This document shows positions 14,514 to 36,821 of a DNA stretch of 44,596 nucleotides, one piece after another (the stretch's first letter is position 1; every line of letters starts with the position of its first letter). Below the pieces are notes generated by a model. That model was not told the DNA's origin. It did no database searches and saw nothing but the letters and a program-made list of their open reading frames with translations. The stretch comes from Candidatus Firestoneibacteriota bacterium. GTDB lineage: Bacteria; Oederibacteriota; D2-FULL-39-29. The DNA is taken from contig CAIYPD010000119.1 of the NCBI GenBank assembly GCA_903928075.1, positions 1 to 44,596 of the forward strand, in the 5' to 3' direction. The position numbers and the translations under genes are program-made.

Positions 14514-15029
14514 TTATTTCACGCTCTGGGCAATAAGTGTTTTTACCTGTTCTCCAAAACTGCCGCCGTAGATTACATTGCCTTTCTGATCAACAAGAAT
14601 ATTCATAGGAATACCCTGTACTTCATAGGCTCTTGCTACTTCGCCTTTGATATCTAAAAGAATGGTGTAATTTACCTTGCTTTTCTCGAGGAAGGGTTTA
14701 ACCTTGCCTGCTTCCTCCTGAATATTTATACCTAAAATCTCAAGGTTTTTACTTTTGTATTGCTCCTGAAGCGCAATAAGCTCGGGAATTTCCTGCCTGC
14801 AATAAACACACCAGGTGGCCCAGAAAACGAGCAACACGGCTTTTTTACCTTTGTAATCGCTCAACTTTACTTCCTTCCCGGATATATCTTTAAGTTTAAA
14901 ATCGGGAGCCGCCTGGGATGTCCCTGTTGTTGCGGCTTTATTCTCATTGACGGGTGCGGCGGCAGGCTTCTTTGCCATACCCAACGCAAAAACCGAGAAA
15001 ACAAGAGCTATCATTATTATTTTTTTCAT
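14514..15029 (-). CDS. TlpA/ResA-like thiol-disulfide oxidoreductase, exported
   Basis: The 171-residue protein has a signal peptide (about residues 1-19, MKKIIMIALVFSVFALGMA), an Ala/Pro/Thr linker, and a thioredoxin-fold AhpC/TSA-type domain from about residue 41. The active site is WCVYC (Cys74, Cys77), and the cis-proline lies in GIPMN. Proteins of this kind reduce disulfides outside the cytoplasmic membrane, for example in cytochrome c apoproteins. It is the last gene of a three-gene operon; the CcdA-type gene upstream, 10 bases away, would supply the electrons across the membrane. No cytochrome c maturation gene is seen nearby. Confidence 0.9.
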   Translation of the reverse strand: MKKIIMIALVFSVFALGMAKKPAAAPVNENKAATTGTSQAAPDFKLKDISGKEVKLSDYKGKKAVLLVFWATWCVYCRQEIPELIALQEQYKSKNLEILGINIQEEAGKVKPFLEKSKVNYTILLDIKGEVARAYEVQGIPMNILVDQKGNVIYGGSFGEQVKTLIAQSVK

Positions 15030-15039
15030 GAAGCCTCCC

Positions 15040-15759
15040 CTAAAAAAGAAATATTACTGCTTTGTAAATAAAATAGATACCTAGAACGGACATAGCCACG
15101 CCCATTATCTTTCTAATATTACCCATCCAGCGTCCGGCTTTCGGCAGAGTCATTAATAAACCGGAGAAAGTTCCTGCTAATATCAGGAGTAGTCCCATTC
15201 CCAAAGAGAATGTAAAAAGCAAGGTACTGCCATAAAAAACATTGTGCGTTTTTGCTACATAGGCAAGCGCGACCAGAAGCACGGCTCCGGCACAAGGACC
15301 TACCACCAACCCGGAAATAAGACCGAGAAAGAATATAGTAATGAAACCGGAACCGACTCTTTTTCCTGCAAGATTATTTATGGATTCCGGAATACGGATT
15401 TCATAGAAATCAAACATTGAAAGGGCAAGAATAATACAGACTAAACCCATGATGATATTTGGCCAGATGCTGCTTTGTATTTGCCCGAAGACAGAACCGG
15501 TCAGAGCTGCAATGGTTCCAAGCAGGGTATAGGTAACAGCAATCCCCAATACATATACAATGGAAAGAAAAAATCCCCTTATTTTACTTCCGTCTGCTTG
15601 CGAAGCGATAAAAGTCATAGTTACGGGCAGCATTGTATAAATACAGGGTTCAAAGCTGGTAAGAATACCTGCAAGAAATATCAAAACGTATGATAGCAGA
15701 ATATCATTCTGCATTGCCAGTTTTAAACTGCCTGCAAGCTGGTTTATCAATTCTGTCAT
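15040..15759 (-). CDS. ccdA: CcdA/DsbD-type transmembrane thiol electron carrier
   Basis: The 239-residue polytopic protein has six or more hydrophobic helices and the two conserved membrane cysteines of the family: one in the first helix (EPCIYTMLP) and one in VVGPCAGAVLL. CcdA proteins carry reducing power from cytoplasmic thioredoxin to periplasmic TlpA-like acceptors. The operon supplies both partners: a thioredoxin upstream, overlapping by four bases, and TlpA downstream. The length is that of stand-alone CcdA rather than full DsbD. Confidence 0.9.
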   Translation of the reverse strand: MTELINQLAGSLKLAMQNDILLSYVLIFLAGILTSFEPCIYTMLPVTMTFIASQADGSKIRGFFLSIVYVLGIAVTYTLLGTIAALTGSVFGQIQSSIWPNIIMGLVCIILALSMFDFYEIRIPESINNLAGKRVGSGFITIFFLGLISGLVVGPCAGAVLLVALAYVAKTHNVFYGSTLLFTFSLGMGLLLILAGTFSGLLMTLPKAGRWMGNIRKIMGVAMSVLGIYFIYKAVIFLF

Positions 15760-16079
15760 GAGTTTTTATCGATAAAAACCTTAAGATCTGAATCCGGCAT
15801 GTAGCCGATATTCCTGGCTTTTTCGATACCTGCTTTAAAAATAATAAGGGTGGGAATTGCTAAAACTCCGTATTCCGTGGCTATCTTCATATTCTTTACG
15901 GCATCGGTCCAGATAAATTTTGCTTTATCTTTATATTCTCCGGCTGTTTTTTCGAAAACAGGAAAAAGCCTTTTACAGGAAGGGCACCATTCTGATTTAA
16001 AAAGTACAAGAACCACACCGGCATTCTTTTTTATATCTTCTTCATACTTTAGATCGTCTGTTTCCGTTAAATCAGCCAT
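15756..16079 (-). CDS. Thioredoxin-family protein
   Basis: The 107-residue cytoplasmic protein has a thioredoxin fold with the active site WCPSC (Cys32, Cys35) in place of the classical WCGPC and a cis-Pro in AIPT. It probably reduces the CcdA protein encoded next, whose start it overlaps by four bases. ATG 16079 is preferred over ATG 16085, because GGGAG lies seven bases upstream of the former and only one base from the latter. A promoter is visible upstream on the minus strand. Confidence 0.88.
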   Translation of the reverse strand: MADLTETDDLKYEEDIKKNAGVVLVLFKSEWCPSCKRLFPVFEKTAGEYKDKAKFIWTDAVKNMKIATEYGVLAIPTLIIFKAGIEKARNIGYMPDSDLKVFIDKNS

Positions 16080-16101
16080 TTTCATTCTCCCTTGCAGTCT
16101 T

Positions 16102-18271: not shown

Positions 18272-19465
18272 ATGTCTGCAATAAAGATTCAGGAAGGCGT
18301 CTACTGGGTCGGAGTGGTGGACTGGAATGTAAGAAGTTTTCATGGTCATACTTTTAATACAAAAAGAGGAAGTACCTACAACGCCTACCTGATTGTCGAT
18401 GAAAAAATTGCCCTGGTCGATTCTGTTTACGGCCCCTTCTCAAAAGAGCTTATTGCCAATATAAGTGAAATAGTCCCTCCGGAAAAGATAGACTATATGG
18501 TTGTTAATCATGTGGAAACCGACCATTCAGGTTCCGTTCCGGAAATTATGAAGTTATGCCCGAAGGCTAAGGTTATAGGCACGGAAAAATGCAAACTCGG
18601 TATGACCCGCAACTATTACGGCAGCTGGGATTGGCAAACAGTAAAGTCCGGGGATAAAATTTCTCTGGGTAAAAAAACTCTGACTTTTCTTGAAGCCCCT
18701 ATGCTGCATTGGCCGGATAGTATGTTTACTTATTTGCCTGAATTGGAACTTCTCATGCCCAACGATGCTTTTGGTCAACATCTTGCCACCTCAAAGCGGT
18801 TTGATGACGAAGTTAATCAGTTTGAACTTATGGATGAGTCTGCCGCCTATTATGCAAATATACTTTTGCCTTTCAGCCCGCTGGTAATAAGGAAAATAGA
18901 AGAAGTTGTAAAACTGGGTATCCCTATAAAAATGATTGCACCGAGCCACGGAATAATATGGCGGAAAGATCCGGGTAAAATAATCGAAGCCTATCTGAGC
19001 TGGGCGCGAAACGAGACAAAGACTAAGGTCGTTATTGCGTATGAGACAATGTGGAAATCTACCGAAATTATGGCTAAAAGGATTGCTGACGGTATCGCCT
19101 CAACCGGTGTTGAACTGGTAATTGCGGATGTAGCTGAAACTGACAATACAAATATTATTAAAGAAATGCTGGATGCAAAAGGCTATTTGATAGGTTCGTC
19201 CACCCATGGCAATGACATGCTCCCTCAACTCGCGGGTTTTTTGGCTTTCCTTAAAGATATGAAACCTAAAGGCAGGCTGGGTGCGGCTTTTGGTTCCTAT
19301 GGTTGGGCCGGCGGGGCGGCAAAAAATATAGAAAATAAACTAAAAGAAATGGGGGTCGAGCCGGTACTGCCCCTGATTCAGTGCCAGTTTGTTCCGGACA
19401 AACAAGAAATGCAGAAGCTGTTTGAATACGGAGTCGAATTTGCAAAGCGGCTTAGTACAAAATAA
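18272..19465 (+). CDS. fprA: A-type flavodiiron protein (FprA/ROO family)
   Basis: The 397-residue cytoplasmic protein reduces O2 to water, and often NO to N2O, in anaerobes. Residues 1-250 are a metallo-beta-lactamase-like domain with all seven diiron ligands: His80, Glu82, Asp84 and His85 in HVETDHSG, then His146, Asp165 and His226. Residues 255-397 are a flavodoxin domain that binds FMN. There is no C-terminal rubredoxin extension, so this is class A, and a separate rubredoxin gene follows 32 bases later as the likely electron donor. The divergent small Cys-rich gene shares the control region. AGGAGG precedes ATG 18272. Confidence 0.95.
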
Positions 19466-19998: not shown

Positions 19999-20907
19999 AT
20001 GGCTAAAGTTTATGAACTTATCATTGCGGGCGGGGGGCCTGCCGGTATCACCGCTGCCGTTTACGCCGCAAGGAAAAAGCTTGATTTTGTTCTCGTCACA
20101 CGGGACATAGGCGGGCAGGCGGCCTGGAGCGGTGATATAGAAAATTACACAGGCTACCAGTTTGTAACCGGGCCTGAACTTGCCGTGAAATTTGAAGAGC
20201 ATGCCAGAAAATATCAATTCCCTATCAAAGAAAACGAAGGTCTTATTTCTATTGAAAAAGAAAATGAAATAATCTCTATCAACACCGGAAAAGCCAGATA
20301 TAGTACCAAAGCGCTTATAATAGCCTCAGGAAAAAGAAGCCGGGAGTTAAATGTTCCCGGAGAAAGAGAATTAAAAAATAAAGGCGTTGCTTACTGCGCA
20401 ACCTGTGACGGGCCACTTTTTGCAGGAAAAGAAGTTGCCGTAATCGGCGGGGGTAACTCGGCACTGGATGCGGCGCTGCAAATGGTCAAGATTGCGAAAA
20501 AAGTGTATCTGGTGAACAATACTCCCGAACTGGGAGGCGATAAAGTTATGAGGCAGAAATTAGAAGAAGCGGCTAATGTGACTATCTTTAACGGTAGCCG
20601 GGTGGAACGGATAAACGGAGAAAAATTTGTTACCGGAATTGGTATTTCTTCCGGATCCGTAAAAAAAGAGCTAGAACTGCAGGGCGTTTTTGTCGAGATT
20701 GGGCTCCTGCCCAATTCGGAATTTGCAGGTATTGTGAAAAGAAATGCGAATGATGAAATAATGGTTAATAACGCCTGTGAAACTGATATTCCGGGTATCT
20801 TTGCCGCAGGTGATGTGACGGATGTGCCGGAAAAACAGATTATAATAGCCGCCGGGGAAGGCGCGAAAGCAACCCTTGCTGCTTTTAAATTTCTTATGAG
20901 AAATTGA
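19999..20907 (+). CDS. trxB: Thioredoxin reductase-like flavoprotein
   Basis: The 302-residue protein has the FAD loop GGGPAG (11-16), the redox pair CATC (133-136), a second dinucleotide loop GGGNSA (150-155) and the late FAD motif GIFAAGDVTD. It would reduce thioredoxin or a related thiol protein. The NADPH signature HRRxxxR expected about 25 residues after GGGNSA is absent; the region reads VYLVNNTPELGGDK, closer to AhpF and the NADH- or ferredoxin-linked enzymes. NADPH is thus not the likely donor. Position between rubredoxin and the sulfur-carrier genes suggests a role in thiol or persulfide redox balance. AAGGAT precedes ATG 19999. Confidence 0.88.
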   Translation: MAKVYELIIAGGGPAGITAAVYAARKKLDFVLVTRDIGGQAAWSGDIENYTGYQFVTGPELAVKFEEHARKYQFPIKENEGLISIEKENEIISINTGKARYSTKALIIASGKRSRELNVPGERELKNKGVAYCATCDGPLFAGKEVAVIGGGNSALDAALQMVKIAKKVYLVNNTPELGGDKVMRQKLEEAANVTIFNGSRVERINGEKFVTGIGISSGSVKKELELQGVFVEIGLLPNSEFAGIVKRNANDEIMVNNACETDIPGIFAAGDVTDVPEKQIIIAAGEGAKATLAAFKFLMRN

Positions 20908-21054
20908 AAAGCAGCCAGAAATTCAAAAATAACTGAAAAGAAATAAAGTAGAAATCCAAATGTTTTGTCTGTTTTTTGTTTGAAAGTTGAGTTTTATCTT
21001 TTTTGTTTTGAGTTTCGAATTTAGTGCTTCGAGTTTGTCTTTATAGGAGTTAAT

Positions 21055-22248
21055 ATGAAACGAGTCTACTTGGATAATGCAGCCTGTACACCTCTTGATA
21101 ACAGGGTTTTTGAGGCGATGAGGCCATTTTTTGTGGAGGAGTTCGGTAATCCCGCGACCATTCATTCCTACGGAAGCGTGCCTAGAGAAGCCCTGGATAA
21201 GGCCAGAGCGCAGGTGGGTGCGTTGATTAATTCTAAACCGGAATATATTTTTTTTACGGCAAACGGTTCGGAAGCTAATAATATGGCGGTTAAGGGAATT
21301 TGCCTGGCTAATCAAGCCAGAGGAAAGCATGTAATTTGCTCCGAGATAGAACATTTTTCCGTCCTGCAGGCGATAAAGTCCATGGAAAAACTGGGCTTCA
21401 CTTCTACTCAGCTTAAAGTGGATAAGAACGGAATAATTCAAACCGGAGAACTGGAAGAACTTATTAAAGATGAAACCGTTCTGGTCTCCGTTATGCTGGC
21501 AAACCACGAGGTTGGCACTATTGAGCCGGTTGCCGGAGTGGCGGCACTCATCAAAAAAATTAACGCAGAGAGAGCGACAAGGAAACTTCAGCCGGTTTAT
21601 CTGCATGCAGATGCAATTGCCGCGGCCGGTGTTATTCCTGTGGATGTAGAGGCTCTCGGCGTCGATCTGCTTTCTCTGGCTTCGAGTTCTTTCTATGGGC
21701 CTAAAGGTGCAGCGGCTCTGTATATAAGGAAGGGCGTGCGAATAAATCCCCTAATAGACGGCGGTATCCAGGAAGGCGGGAGAAGAGCCGGGCTTGAAAA
21801 TGTCCCGGCAATTGTGGGGATGGGCAAAGCCGCAGAACTGGCACGGTCTGAAATGGCGGAGCGGGATAAAAAGATGGAACCCTTAAGAGATCTCCTGATA
21901 GAACTTATTTTAAAGAATATCCCGCAGGTGCGGTTAAACGGTGATGCAAAAAAACGGCTGCCTAATAATGTAAATGTGGCGGTTGAATATATAGAAGGTG
22001 AATCGATGCTGATGTGGCTTGATGACGCCGGAATTGCAGCTTCCTCGGGTTCGGCCTGTACCTCGAAGGCACTCAAGGCCTCGCATGTGCTTCTTGCCAT
22101 AGGCGTGCCGCAGGAAGTCTGCCACGGTTCTATGCTATTTTCGCTTAACAAGGATACAACGAAGGAAGAGATCGAGTATACGGCGACCGAGTTGGCGAAG
22201 ACGGTAAAAAAACTACGGGAGATGTCGCCTCTCTACAAAAAACCCTGA
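21055..22248 (+). CDS. NifS/IscS-like protein lacking the PLP lysine
   Basis: The 397-residue protein is a full-length class V aminotransferase-fold homologue of cysteine desulfurase. It keeps the start YLDNAACTPLD, His100 of EIEHFSVL, NHEVGTIEP and the sulfur-accepting loop SSGSACTS with Cys335. The Schiff-base site is lost: the usual SAHKFYGPKG reads ASSSFYGPKG (209-218), with Ser212 for Lys and Ser211 for His. The Gln of HxDAxQ is Ala189, and the phosphate-contacting Thr of RxGTxN is Leu247. Normal PLP chemistry is therefore unlikely. A natural lysine loss is known in Archaeoglobus fulgidus IscS. Persulfide carrier, scaffold or salvage functions are possible. An SD (AGGAG) precedes ATG 21055; DsrE2 and TusA genes follow. 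Confidence 0.9.
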   Translation: MKRVYLDNAACTPLDNRVFEAMRPFFVEEFGNPATIHSYGSVPREALDKARAQVGALINSKPEYIFFTANGSEANNMAVKGICLANQARGKHVICSEIEHFSVLQAIKSMEKLGFTSTQLKVDKNGIIQTGELEELIKDETVLVSVMLANHEVGTIEPVAGVAALIKKINAERATRKLQPVYLHADAIAAAGVIPVDVEALGVDLLSLASSSFYGPKGAAALYIRKGVRINPLIDGGIQEGGRRAGLENVPAIVGMGKAAELARSEMAERDKKMEPLRDLLIELILKNIPQVRLNGDAKKRLPNNVNVAVEYIEGESMLMWLDDAGIAASSGSACTSKALKASHVLLAIGVPQEVCHGSMLFSLNKDTTKEEIEYTATELAKTVKKLREMSPLYKKP

Positions 22249-22426: not shown

Positions 22427-22446
22427 TATTTTTGTGGGAGGGAAGA

Positions 22447-22932
22447 ATGACTGATAACAAAAATAAAATGACCCTTATTCTTTTTTCGGGGGAACTCGAC
22501 AAAGCTCTTGCGTGTTTCACACTGGCCACGACTGCGGCCGCGGCGGGTTTTGAAGTGACCATCTTCTTTACTTTCTGGGGGCTTAATGTTTTAAAGAGAG
22601 GCGGGATTTCCGCGGGGAAGAAGAATCTTTTGCAGAAAATGTTTGCGTTTATAAATAAAGGTACAAATAGAAGCCTGCCGTTAACCAAGTTTAACTTTGC
22701 CGGGGCCGGGCCAAAGATGATGGAGCTGCTTATGAAACAGAAGAAAATGGCTTCACTTCCGGAGATGATGAAAGCGGCAAGAGAAATGAAAGTAAAATAC
22801 ATTGCTTGTACCACCTCCTGCGGCATAATGGGTGTGGATAGAGCCGATTTGATTGAGGAAGTGGATGAGATGGCCGGTGCGGCCACCTATCTGGCGGAAG
22901 CTAAAAATTCAAATGTTAATCTGTTTATATAA
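22447..22932 (+). CDS. DsrE2-type (DsrE/DsrF/DrsH-like) sulfur carrier protein
   Basis: The 161-residue protein has the DsrE2 layout: LILFSGELDKALACFTLA at the N terminus, the hydrophobic FEVTIFFTFWGLNVLK, and the reactive-cysteine segment YIACTTSCGIMGV with Cys121 and Cys125. DsrE-family proteins hold or pass persulfide sulfur and often work with TusA, which is encoded 15 bases downstream. The ATG at 22447 is chosen because GGGAGGG (22436-22442) precedes it; an earlier in-frame TTG at 22432 overlaps that SD. One or two weakly hydrophobic stretches may let it associate with the membrane. Confidence 0.88.
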   Translation: MTDNKNKMTLILFSGELDKALACFTLATTAAAAGFEVTIFFTFWGLNVLKRGGISAGKKNLLQKMFAFINKGTNRSLPLTKFNFAGAGPKMMELLMKQKKMASLPEMMKAAREMKVKYIACTTSCGIMGVDRADLIEEVDEMAGAATYLAEAKNSNVNLFI

Positions 22933-22947
22933 AAAAAGGAAAATAAT

Positions 22948-23184
22948 ATGGCTAACATAAAAGCGGATAAAGAACTTGATTGTCTCGGGCTTTATTGCCC
23001 GGTGCCCATAATGAAAACTGCGGAAATGATGAAAAATATGAAGAGCGGTGAAATTCTGGAAATAATTGCCGACGATGAAGGTATAATAAAAGATATGCCG
23101 GCCTGGGCGAAAATGACCGGAAATGAAGTTTTGAGCAGTGAAACCGAAGGCGAGATCCACAAGCTCTATGTTAAGAAAAAATGA
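22948..23184 (+). CDS. tusA: TusA-family sulfurtransferase
   Basis: The 78-residue protein has the complete TusA/SirA/YedF signature DCLGLYCPVP (11-20), with Cys17 as the persulfide-bearing residue followed by Pro-Val-Pro, and the usual IxADDEG segment in the second half. TusA proteins accept sulfur from a desulfurase, rhodanese or DsrE partner and hand it on for tRNA thiolation, cofactor synthesis or sulfur oxidation. Here the neighbour candidates are the DsrE2 protein and the NifS-like protein. Its stop overlaps the next start in ATGA, coupling it to the 2-oxoacid:ferredoxin oxidoreductase. Confidence 0.93.
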   Translation: MANIKADKELDCLGLYCPVPIMKTAEMMKNMKSGEILEIIADDEGIIKDMPAWAKMTGNEVLSSETEGEIHKLYVKKK

Positions 23185-24890
23185 TAAATGATGCGGAAAT
23201 AGGTATAGCCGGTGCCGCCGGCCAGGGAATGCAGACCATAGCCTTTACTCTGGGTAAGACCTTTGCCTGCGCCGGATATTTTTCCTATACATATCACGAT
23301 ATAATGTCTCGTATTCGAGGCGGTTCCAACCTGTCCGTTCTCAGGATAAAAAATACTCCGGTCAGCTCCATCTCCTATCATTTGGACCTTCTTGTAGCGC
23401 TTGACTTTGAAGGGATACTTAAGAATAAAAACATAATTAAAAAACCCGGACTTATAATTTACGATGGAGAAAAAATAAAACTTGAGCGCGGTGAAGCCGG
23501 TCTTTTCTCTGTACCACTTGAACGCCTGGCACTGGAAGCAGGAAAAGATAAAGTTACGGTTAACTCTGTAGCAACCGGCGCGGTAGTAGCCCTTTTAAAC
23601 GGGGAAGTTGCCGCCTGCTGTGAAGTTATCCGGGAATTGTTTGCCGGCAAAAGTGAGGAGGTAATAGCCAATAATATAAATGCCGTAAAATCGGGTTTTG
23701 AGTATGCCAAAAAAAATATGCCCGCCGGCGCGGGTCTTCAAATAAAACCTGCCAACTTAGCGGCTAAATCTCTGTTTATAAACGGTAGTGATGCTCTGGC
23801 TCTTGCGGCTATCGCCTCGGGTTTGAAATTTTATGCAGGCTATCCTATGTCTCCCTCAACTGCGGTAATGGAATATGTAGCAGCTAAAGCCAATAGTTTT
23901 AAGATTATCTATGAGCAGGCTGAGGATGAAATTGCGGCTATTAATATGGTAGTCGGCGCGGCTTATAGCGGAGTTCGGGCTATGACGGCAACAAGCGGAG
24001 GGGGTTTCGCTTTGATGACTGAAGGAATTTCTCTTGCCGGTATGACAGAAACTCCTGTTGTTATAGTCCTTACTCAAAGGCCCGGTCCCGCAACCGGCTT
24101 TCCTACAAGGACTGAACAGGCGGACTTAAATATGGCCCTTTATTCCGGGCATGGCGAATTTGCAAAGGTTATTCTGGCTCCGGGGACAGCGGCGGAATGC
24201 TTCATTATTATAAGCAGGGCGTTTAATCTTGCAGAGAAATACCAGGTGCCGGTTATTGTGCTTACGGACCAGTGCCTGAATGATTCAAGTTATACACTGA
24301 AGTTTTCTGATCTCGAAATTGAACCGGTTAACCGGGGCCAGCTTGGTTTTGTCCCGGCAGGAGAACCTTACACCTATCAAAGATATTCCCTTAAAGAAAC
24401 CGGGGTCTCGCCCCGGCTGGTCCCGGGCTGCGAAAAACAGGTGGTTTGCGAAGATAGCGACGAGCACACCGAGGCCGGGCATATCAGCGAGAGCGCGGAA
24501 CTAAGAAAGCTTATGGTACAAAAACGCCTGGGGAAACTAAAAGCCATAGCCGCAGAAATAAGGCCGCCGGCTTACAGCGGGGCAAACGAGCCCGAAATAC
24601 TTTTGGTCAGCTGGGGTTCGACCTTCGGCGCTGTTAAAGAAGCGGTGGAACTCCTAAACGAAAAAGGTGTAAAGGCGGCAATGCTCCACTTTTCAGAAAT
24701 CTGGCCTCTTCCGGAGCTGGAACTTCCCTGCAACTTGGCGCAAATAAAAAATATTATCGCCGTAGAGGGTAATGCTACCGGCCAGTTTGGCGCATTATTT
24801 TCTGTACACACCGGCGTAACCCCGCATAAGTCGATACTGCGCTTTGACGGCAGACCTATAACCGCGGAATATATAATAACAAAGGTATAA
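23181..24890 (+). CDS. 2-oxoacid:ferredoxin oxidoreductase, fused gamma-alpha subunit
   Basis: The 569-residue protein fuses a gamma domain (about 1-185, starting IGIAGAAGQGMQT and containing YHDIMSRIRGGSN) to an alpha domain (about 205-569, with GYPMSPSTAVMEY and the TATSGGGFALMTEGIS block). With the beta subunit encoded 27 bases downstream it should oxidise a 2-oxoacid with CoA and reduce ferredoxin. The fused gamma-alpha order is typical of the 2-oxoglutarate/branched 2-oxoacid group rather than classical pyruvate enzymes, though the substrate is not settled. No delta ferredoxin subunit is encoded here. Translation is coupled to TusA through an ATGA overlap. Confidence 0.92.
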   Translation: MINDAEIGIAGAAGQGMQTIAFTLGKTFACAGYFSYTYHDIMSRIRGGSNLSVLRIKNTPVSSISYHLDLLVALDFEGILKNKNIIKKPGLIIYDGEKIKLERGEAGLFSVPLERLALEAGKDKVTVNSVATGAVVALLNGEVAACCEVIRELFAGKSEEVIANNINAVKSGFEYAKKNMPAGAGLQIKPANLAAKSLFINGSDALALAAIASGLKFYAGYPMSPSTAVMEYVAAKANSFKIIYEQAEDEIAAINMVVGAAYSGVRAMTATSGGGFALMTEGISLAGMTETPVVIVLTQRPGPATGFPTRTEQADLNMALYSGHGEFAKVILAPGTAAECFIIISRAFNLAEKYQVPVIVLTDQCLNDSSYTLKFSDLEIEPVNRGQLGFVPAGEPYTYQRYSLKETGVSPRLVPGCEKQVVCEDSDEHTEAGHISESAELRKLMVQKRLGKLKAIAAEIRPPAYSGANEPEILLVSWGSTFGAVKEAVELLNEKGVKAAMLHFSEIWPLPELELPCNLAQIKNIIAVEGNATGQFGALFSVHTGVTPHKSILRFDGRPITAEYIITKV

Positions 24891-24917: not shown

Positions 24918-25778
24918 ATGGTAACAAAACAAGATTATAACAGCACCGATCCTGTTGCCTGGTGTCCGGGGTGCGGGAATTTTTCGATACTTAATTCGCT
25001 TAAGGACGCTCTTGTCGAACTGGGCTTGGAACCCTGGCAGGTTGTTCTTGTTTCGGGGATAGGTCAGGCGGCAAAACTTCCTCATTATCTGAAATGTAAT
25101 CTTTTTAACGGGCTGCACGGACGGGCTTTGCCTGCGGCGTTTGGTATCAAAGCCGTTAACCATAAGCTAAAAGTGATTGTTCACGGCGGGGACGGGGATG
25201 CTTATGCGGAAGGCGGCAATCATTTTGTCCATGCTATCAGGCGAAATGCGGACCTGACCTATTTTGTTCATGATAATCAGATCTACGGGCTTACCAAAGG
25301 TCAGGCCTCACCCACAACCGACCCCGGAATGAAGACCGGAACCACCCCGTTTGGCAGTTATAATGAACCGGAGCAGCCCATGGCCGTGGCTATCGCTCTT
25401 AATGCTTCGTTTGTTGCCCGGGCTTTTGCCGGAGACCCGGTACAGCTGGTTAAAATAATGAAAAGCGCACTATTACACCGGGGTTTTTCTTTCGTTGATA
25501 TTCTACAACCCTGTATAACATTTAATAAAACAAATACCTATCAGTGGTATAAGGAGCGGGTTTACAAGCTGGAAGAGGATCCCGGTTATGACCCGCGGGA
25601 CCGGTCTGTCGCCTTCACAAGATCACTGGAGTGGGGAGACAAGATTCCGACCGGAATAATTTATGAATGCGACCGGCCTGTCTATGAAGATCATTCCCCG
25701 GTTAGTAAAGATATTTCTCTCTGCCGGGAAAAATTAGTTCTGCCAAAACTTGAAGACTTACTAAAAGCTTATTTCTGA
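24918..25778 (+). CDS. 2-oxoacid:ferredoxin oxidoreductase, beta subunit
   Basis: The 286-residue TPP-binding subunit has WCPGCGNF near residue 16, the first Fe-S cysteines, the Mg-TPP motif GDGDAYAEGGNHFVHAIRRN (about residues 92-111), and DNQIYGLTKGQASPT, all diagnostic of KorB/VorB-type beta subunits. It pairs with the fused gamma-alpha subunit upstream to form the active enzyme and carries the proximal iron-sulfur cluster. GAGAGGAG precedes ATG 24918. This is the last gene of the sulfur/2-oxoacid run; no terminator hairpin is obvious. Confidence 0.93.
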   Translation: MVTKQDYNSTDPVAWCPGCGNFSILNSLKDALVELGLEPWQVVLVSGIGQAAKLPHYLKCNLFNGLHGRALPAAFGIKAVNHKLKVIVHGGDGDAYAEGGNHFVHAIRRNADLTYFVHDNQIYGLTKGQASPTTDPGMKTGTTPFGSYNEPEQPMAVAIALNASFVARAFAGDPVQLVKIMKSALLHRGFSFVDILQPCITFNKTNTYQWYKERVYKLEEDPGYDPRDRSVAFTRSLEWGDKIPTGIIYECDRPVYEDHSPVSKDISLCREKLVLPKLEDLLKAYF

Positions 25779-35762: not shown

Positions 35763-36821
35763 ATGAAAAACTTTATTGAAAAAGCCGGAAAAGCAAGGCG
35801 CTTGTCTCGTTTTAAAGAAGCCGGCAGGTATTATTATCTTGAAGCAAAAACCAGCCCTTCTTATGATGCCTATTACGGGCTTGGTGATATGTTCCGTATG
35901 ACAGGTTCTTACCGGAAAGCCTTGAAAGCCTATAAAACGGCCGGCCGGTTCGTTTTAGAAAATAAAGCTGCGTCTGCGGATATTTACATGGGCTGCGGTA
36001 TGGCTCTTAGAGCCGTCATGGAGTATAAAAAAGCCGCCGGTTATTTTCTGGGAGCCAAAAAAACCTACCTGGCTCTTTCTGACAGAGAAGGCCAAGCTTA
36101 TTCGCTCTGGTGCCTTGGCGGTTTATACCGGATAATGGGCAATCTGAAGGCCGCACTCGCCGCTTTTGACAAGTCCCTGGCAATATATAAAAAAATAGGG
36201 AATAAGGAATATTTTGCTTTTGCTTTAGCCGGCCGGGGTGGGACGCTCCGGATGCTTGGGAGATTTGAGGAATCGCTTTCGTGTTATAGAACGGCAAACA
36301 AATATTTCAAAAAAATGAAAGACATCTTCGGGCTGGCCTATTCAAATTGCGGGATGGGCAGCGCAAACAGGATGCTGGGAAATTATTTGGTCTCAGATGC
36401 GCATTACAAGAAGGCGGAGAAATATTACAGGTCTTTCAAGGATGAGATAAACTATGCTTATGTTCTTTTTGGCCATGCAAATACTCTTTTGTGCCTGGGC
36501 GTCGCCGGGAAATCTGTTCTGCTTAACCGCAAATCAAAAAAATTATTTAAGAGAGCCGGGGATAAAAGGGGCTATGTCTACGCGCTGCTTCAGGAAGGTG
36601 AAATAAAAAGAAATGCCGGCTGTAAAAAAGAAGCTTTAAGGGTATTTAAAACGGCAGTTAAAATAAGCAGGAAATATGGACTTAAATTAGAAAGCATCCA
36701 CGGCGAAATGGGCATTTTTTTCACGGAAGGGAAAGGACCTAATCCTATAAAAAAGTATTGCAAATTAAAGACAAATTGGCAAAGTGTTTTAAAAAGGAAC
36801 AGTATCCTCAATTTCCCTTGA
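35763..36821 (+). CDS. Tetratricopeptide repeat protein
   Basis: The 352-residue protein is almost entirely tandem 34-40-residue TPR helix pairs, such as YYGLGDMFRMTGSYRKALKAY, GLYRIMGNLKAALAAFDKSL and GRGGTLRMLGRFEESLSCYR, seven to eight in all. It has no signal peptide, membrane segment or fused catalytic domain, so it is probably a cytoplasmic scaffold. It is rich in Lys, Tyr and Gly. The stop TGA at 36819-36821 lies inside the -35 hexamer of the next promoter. AGAAGG precedes the ATG. Partner and function are unknown. Confidence 0.85.
   Translation: MKNFIEKAGKARRLSRFKEAGRYYYLEAKTSPSYDAYYGLGDMFRMTGSYRKALKAYKTAGRFVLENKAASADIYMGCGMALRAVMEYKKAAGYFLGAKKTYLALSDREGQAYSLWCLGGLYRIMGNLKAALAAFDKSLAIYKKIGNKEYFAFALAGRGGTLRMLGRFEESLSCYRTANKYFKKMKDIFGLAYSNCGMGSANRMLGNYLVSDAHYKKAEKYYRSFKDEINYAYVLFGHANTLLCLGVAGKSVLLNRKSKKLFKRAGDKRGYVYALLQEGEIKRNAGCKKEALRVFKTAVKISRKYGLKLESIHGEMGIFFTEGKGPNPIKKYCKLKTNWQSVLKRNSILNFP

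Follow-up and report, generated by a model that had tools for sequence, protein, structure and literature searches.

A NifS/IscS homologue without the catalytic lysine is encoded in the window analysed here (the whole 44,596-nucleotide stretch, from a Candidatus Firestonebacteria genome of 2.72 Mb that is 98% complete), and it is very probable that the protein has no cysteine desulfurase activity and has a role in sulfur or Fe–S trafficking. We infer that it is best read as an IscS paralogue that is no desulfurase and either acts as a sulfur relay linking TusA/DsrE2 with IscU or ligates nascent clusters.

The protein is a full-length member of the NifS/IscS group with the class V aminotransferase fold, and its frame is open for 397 codons. 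Two minus-strand ORFs lying over the gene (20923–21606 and 21693–22151) were set aside because the plus-strand frame encodes a confirmed protein family. Family positions are numbered as in E. coli IscS, which served with A. fulgidus IscS as the alignment reference, both checked against PDB 1p3w and 4eb5. The gene and its key positions are:

21055–22248, plus strand: lysine-less NifS/IscS paralogue (P0001), 397 amino acids, identified from the ORF, a profile match, the alignment and an AlphaFold2 model
21685–21690, plus strand: Ser211-Ser212 replacing His205-Lys206, the latter being the Schiff-base lysine (alignment)
21619–21621, plus strand: Ala189 replacing Gln183 (alignment)
21793–21795, plus strand: Leu247 replacing Thr243, a phosphate contact (alignment)
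22135–22137, plus strand: Leu361 replacing Arg354, which binds the substrate carboxylate (alignment)
22057–22059, plus strand: Cys335, the persulfide cysteine of the mobile loop, present in 66 of 66 clade members (alignment)

In E. coli IscS, Lys206 makes the Schiff base with PLP, Arg354 binds the carboxylate of cysteine, Asp180 is the partner of the pyridine nitrogen, and the His104 and Asp180 positions contact the PLP ring. An initial annotation of the DNA had listed the replacements at Ser211, Ser212, Ala189 and Leu247 and the retention of Cys335 and His100. Alignment with E. coli and A. fulgidus IscS shows all of these to be right and adds a change that was absent from that list, Leu361 for Arg354. 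The window protein also keeps Asp186 (Asp180 in E. coli), alongside Cys335 (Cys328, in the motif SSGSACTS) and His100 (His104), and it retains the C-terminal SPLY motif. Hence, where a desulfurase has its PLP Schiff-base lysine and its carboxylate-binding arginine the protein has Ser212 and Leu361, and the loop cysteine is in place. By established biochemistry, a protein that has lost this lysine and this arginine should not desulfurate cysteine.

The AlphaFold2 model (mean pLDDT 91) has the NifS/IscS fold, with TM-scores of at least 0.90 to NFS1 and IscS, and is weak mainly at the Cys loop, residues 334–338 (pLDDT <50). Its top structural matches are human NFS1, A. fulgidus IscS and E. coli IscS, including complexes with IscU and with TusA. 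Against the NCBIfam NifS equivalog TIGR03402 the protein scores 467.1 bits, which is under the curated cut-off of 530.75.

The residue changes result neither from error nor from decay, since they are common to independent assemblies and purifying selection acts on the gene. The window's family includes four further Firestonebacteria genomes, all separately assembled, whose orthologues (81–87% identity) have Ser212 and Leu247 without exception, and three of the four have Ala189. A second Firestonebacteria family (59–64% identity) lacks the lysine as well, with Gln in its place, and also the arginine. This recurrence rules out the sequencing or assembly error that the initial annotation had already thought unlikely. 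Within the window's family, pN/pS for the nifS-like gene is 0.10–0.14, rough figures given that synonymous sites are near saturation, and dN/dS is about 0.04–0.06 where dS is unsaturated, compared with a pN/pS of 0.14–0.21 for canonical NifS from the same genomes. Purifying selection acts on the nifS-like gene no less strongly than on canonical NifS, which together with the intact frame rules out a pseudogene. A paralogue decaying without function, as the lost catalytic residues might suggest, is hardly credible in view of this selection, of a loop cysteine that is invariant across about ten phyla, and of an operon kept in both Firestonebacteria families.

Relatives were taken as the 80 sequences in the genome collection most similar to the window protein, a set that is no unbiased survey, and nearly all of them are lysine-less. 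Among these best 80, lysine-less copies occur in Dehalococcoidia, Anaerolineae, Scalindua, Brocadia, Kuenenia, Nitrospirae and Thermodesulfovibrio, and also in Aminicenantes, Elusimicrobia, KSB1, WOR-3 and Actinomycetota. Judged from the aligned residues, a clade without Arg354, and nearly always without Lys206, covers about ten bacterial phyla. In the 66 Arg-less sequences examined, Lys206 is kept twice and is otherwise mostly Gln, Gln183 has become Ala in 55, and Thr243 is kept in 57, while Cys328, His104 and Asp180 are invariant (66/66). All 19 canonical comparison sequences have the Lys, Gln and Arg. Of the residues that the initial annotation proposed to look for in a clade (Ser212, Ala189 and Leu247), the alanine is widespread, whereas the Ser-Ser pair and the leucine are specific to Firestonebacteria, with Ser212 recurring in a single WOR-3 sequence and the Thr-to-Leu change limited to the Firestonebacteria branch. 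Erosion private to Firestonebacteria holds for Ser211-Ser212 and Leu247 but is ruled out for the Lys and Arg, whose loss is clade-wide and spans many phyla, so that the local erosion first described gives way to a much broader change. Likewise, the description of the PLP pocket as eroded is apt for Lys, Gln, Thr and Arg but not for the ring-binding His and Asp.

In trees built without the trait columns, most canonical NifS are separated from the Arg-less bacterial sequences, which make up a single group (SH-aLRT 100; 99/90 in a second tree), and the complete NifS of the window's own genome lies among canonical NifS outside this group. PDB 9wep, in which all catalytic residues are present, falls inside the group in both trees, and loss and retention are therefore mixed near the base of the clade. 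Two Nitrospirae members (L016, 5272–6429, and L017, 5026–6183) keep Lys206 and have lost Arg354, Gln183 and Thr243; no other NifS was found in the L016 genome. The Candidatus Scalindua genome G060 contains two different lysine-less NifS paralogues (L011, L178, L193).

The invariance of His100 and Asp186 makes a PLP-dependent role conceivable, in which PLP would be bound with no Schiff base or with a different lysine, Lys341 for instance, in that role, and would support an altered reaction. Lys341 (22075–22077) lies just past the Cys loop, corresponds to Glu334 in E. coli, and is lysine in 95% of the Arg-less clade versus 5% of canonical NifS. Such a role is nonetheless improbable, given that the substrate arginine is gone in all members and the glutamine in most, and that the window's family has also lost the phosphate-contact threonine. 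The search for a replacement lysine that the initial annotation proposed was carried out on the alignment. No lysine other than Lys341 proved strongly clade-specific, and Lys341 is unlikely to be a replacement, since PDB 9wep combines its equivalent with an intact Lys206 and this position is Gln in A. fulgidus IscS.

The second, complete desulfurase whose search had been suggested was found on contig C67 beside recN and retains the catalytic Lys, Gln, Thr, Arg and Cys. It is the one complete NifS of the window genome and shares 48–49% identity with the lysine-less copy. Of 25 further genomes in which a lysine-less NifS occurs, at least 15 also have a complete one among the copies retrieved, and in some lysine-less genomes, for example G067, the retrieved copies include no complete NifS. 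With both copies in one genome, the lysine-less protein could pair with the complete NifS as the non-catalytic subunit of a heterodimer and shift the partner choice of that enzyme towards TusA. Thr243 of IscS is supplied to the PLP of the partner subunit, and its retention in 57 of 66 clade members would fit such a pairing. The window's family, however, has lost exactly this threonine (Leu247), and genomes such as G067 seem to offer no complete partner, so that we regard the heterodimer as decidedly improbable.

A search for the SUF core gave no matches in the window genome compared with 14 of 14 controls. The single iscU of the genome is on contig C16 beside mnmA, and its product retains its three cysteines. 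The IscU alignment is short and its tree poorly resolved; there the Firestonebacteria IscU groups with the IscUs of lysine-less operons with a support of 84.

Around the nifS-like gene, the window contains the following genes:

19999–20907, plus strand: thioredoxin-reductase/AhpF-like flavoprotein (trxB-like) with a CATC motif, the upstream gene of the conserved set
22432–22932, plus strand: DsrE2-family sulfur carrier, with a likely start at ATG 22447
22948–23184, plus strand: TusA-family sulfur carrier, CPxP cysteine present
23181–24890, plus strand: 2-oxoacid:ferredoxin oxidoreductase gamma-alpha fusion (KorA-like), overlapping tusA by 4 bases
24918–25778, plus strand: 2-oxoacid:ferredoxin oxidoreductase beta subunit (KorB-like)

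The gene order in Firestonebacteria is trxB-like, nifS-like, dsrE2, tusA, korA, korB, with iscU elsewhere, and the order trxB-nifS-dsrE2-tusA-korA is common to both families. In other phyla the usual order is nifS, iscU, (dsrE2), tusA, and in Nitrospirae it is Rrf2-type regulator, tusA, nifS, iscU, where iscU and the regulator are named from motifs. Counting genes no more than 3 kb away in the same orientation, tusA accompanies the nifS-like gene at 62 of 80 Arg-less loci versus 0 of 21 canonical NifS loci, and iscU does so at 61 of 80 versus 12 of 21, although these counts take in close relatives and the loci are not independent events. Seven Scalindua/Brocadia-type loci and a few others have neither TusA nor IscU within 3 kb, some of them on short contigs. 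The CPxP cysteine of TusA (Cys17) is present in 60 of 60 linked copies and Cys126 of DsrE2 in 20 of 20. A second cysteine, at TusA residue 54, occurs in 55 of 60 TusA proteins near a lysine-less NifS; the window TusA has Ala54. Promoter and terminator scans of the locus gave results at chance level and no operon boundary. Further upstream, the window contains an FprA-type flavodiiron protein gene (18272–19465, plus strand), a neighbour that Firestonebacteria loci conserve ahead of the trxB-like gene, and a cluster for a thioredoxin, a CcdA/DsbD-type membrane protein and a TlpA-like redoxin (14514–16085, minus strand). The thioredoxin and CcdA/DsbD-type genes of this cluster are also conserved in the upstream regions of other loci from Firestonebacteria.

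A close precedent, named already in the initial annotation, is A. fulgidus IscS (PDB 4eb5, 4eb7 and 4hvk; D199K mutant, 4r5f), which has likewise lost the lysine (Asp199), has Ala for Gln183 and Leu for Arg354, keeps the loop cysteine, and shares the fold of the window model (TM-score 0.96–0.97 by target length). The two differ in sequence (43–44% identity), in having Asp there and Ser in the window protein, and in context, as A. fulgidus IscS has a known IscU partner whereas the window gene is unlinked to iscU and is adjoined by tusA/dsrE2/korAB. A. fulgidus IscS falls outside the Arg-less clade in free trees, but keeping all Arg-less sequences together gave a tree that improved on the quick tree by 27 log-likelihood units (p-AU 0.935); a single origin of the archaeal protein and the bacterial clade is possible. 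Desulfurase activity is reported to be absent from A. fulgidus IscS (PMC7585200; also Pagnier et al. 2015, cited by way of PMC5176006), and when complexed with IscU the protein contributes a cysteine that ligates the cluster (PMC7585200, PMC5176006). This reported inactivity, with the missing lysine and substrate arginine and the complete NifS elsewhere in the genome, agrees with the earlier suggestion that the window protein may act without cysteine chemistry.

The same precedent provides the main rival to a sulfur relay, namely a pure scaffold that carries no sulfur: IscU would dock on the protein, Cys335 would be a temporary cluster ligand, sulfide would be the source, and TusA/DsrE2 would act in parallel. 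The shared losses of Lys, Gln and Arg, the cysteine ligand of A. fulgidus IscS, the IscU genes adjoining most lysine-less copies and the retained SPLY motif all favour a scaffold, but it leaves unexplained both the TusA linkage (62/80 versus 0/21) and a Firestonebacteria operon without iscU, and we consider it rather unlikely.

Other known systems are also comparable. The MIS system (MisS and MisU, a minimal ISC) resembles the present one in combining an IscS-like protein with an IscU-like scaffold while lacking the other ISC components, and most relatives of the window protein adjoin IscU. However, MIS is described with a working cysteine desulfurase, MisS (PMC12192291), whereas the window copy has lost catalytic residues, is predicted to be no desulfurase and has no adjacent iscU; by residues and gene neighbours, the window locus is predicted not to pair a desulfurase with an IscU-like scaffold. 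The E. coli IscS–TusA pair (PDB 3lvj) is similar in having the IscS fold and a TusA partner with the CPxP cysteine, but E. coli IscS draws on cysteine to form the persulfide that it hands to TusA, and the window protein is not expected to make persulfide.

A TusA/DsrE2-linked relay through Cys335 is quite possible, if somewhat doubtful. The protein would retain the docking surfaces of IscS, with Cys335 serving as the relay: persulfide sulfur from TusA/DsrE2, or sulfide, would be loaded on Cys335 and then passed to IscU, and cysteine would not be the source. Judging from the operons, the sulfur might alternatively serve Fe–S enzymes, the adjacent 2-oxoacid:ferredoxin oxidoreductase KorAB being a possible client. 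Both the direction of transfer and the source of sulfur are putative. The relay is favoured by the loss of Lys, Gln and Arg, the TusA and IscU linkage, the invariant Cys, His and Asp, the selection, the operon order, the conserved cysteines of the linked TusA and DsrE2 copies, the complete NifS found in this and other genomes, the IscU grouping, the structural matches to complexes and the A. fulgidus parallel. The initial annotation had suggested a sulfur carrier without sight of TusA, DsrE2 or IscU, and the operons strengthen that idea. Against the relay stand the location of iscU outside the Firestonebacteria operon, the loci with neither TusA nor IscU within 3 kb, the PLP-dependent role that His100 and Asp186 leave conceivable, the Lys206 of L016 and L017, and the grouping of PDB 9wep with the clade. 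More tentatively, we propose that a widely distributed branch of bacteria, most of them anaerobic, may feed Fe–S assembly from persulfide and not from cysteine, from TusA and DsrE2 through the loop cysteine of a lysine-less IscS to IscU, the reverse of the IscS-to-TusA direction, with a Firestonebacteria version tied to ferredoxin-linked 2-oxoacid metabolism.

In the literature examined, lysine-less IscS is known from archaea only, in A. fulgidus and in one of several IscS copies of Methanosarcina acetivorans, IscS1 (PMC7585200). M. acetivorans IscS1 thus resembles the window protein in lacking the catalytic lysine and in having further IscS copies in its genome, and differs in being archaeal. 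Lysine-less IscS is therefore no new kind of protein. What appears to be new is the bacterial TusA-linked branch of about ten phyla and the Firestonebacteria form that is off iscU and tied to dsrE2-tusA-korAB; no TusA/DsrE-linked or pseudoenzyme desulfurase was found in the literature searched, to which the MIS/SMS survey by Garcia et al. (2022) and the paper by Pagnier et al. (2015) did not belong. This is a clade-wide, operon-supported bacterial form that often coexists with a complete NifS, and a similarity-based label of ‘cysteine desulfurase’ for such genes would lead metabolic models astray. A real relay would amount to a cysteine-independent route of sulfur into Fe–S clusters with simple partners, TusA, DsrE2 and IscU.

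A possible second persulfide source in the genome is encoded on contig C115 (about 35800–36400, minus strand; L114), where an 826-codon frame joins a pyridine-nucleotide oxidoreductase, by eye CoA-disulfide-reductase-like, to rhodanese, TusA and DsrE2-like parts.
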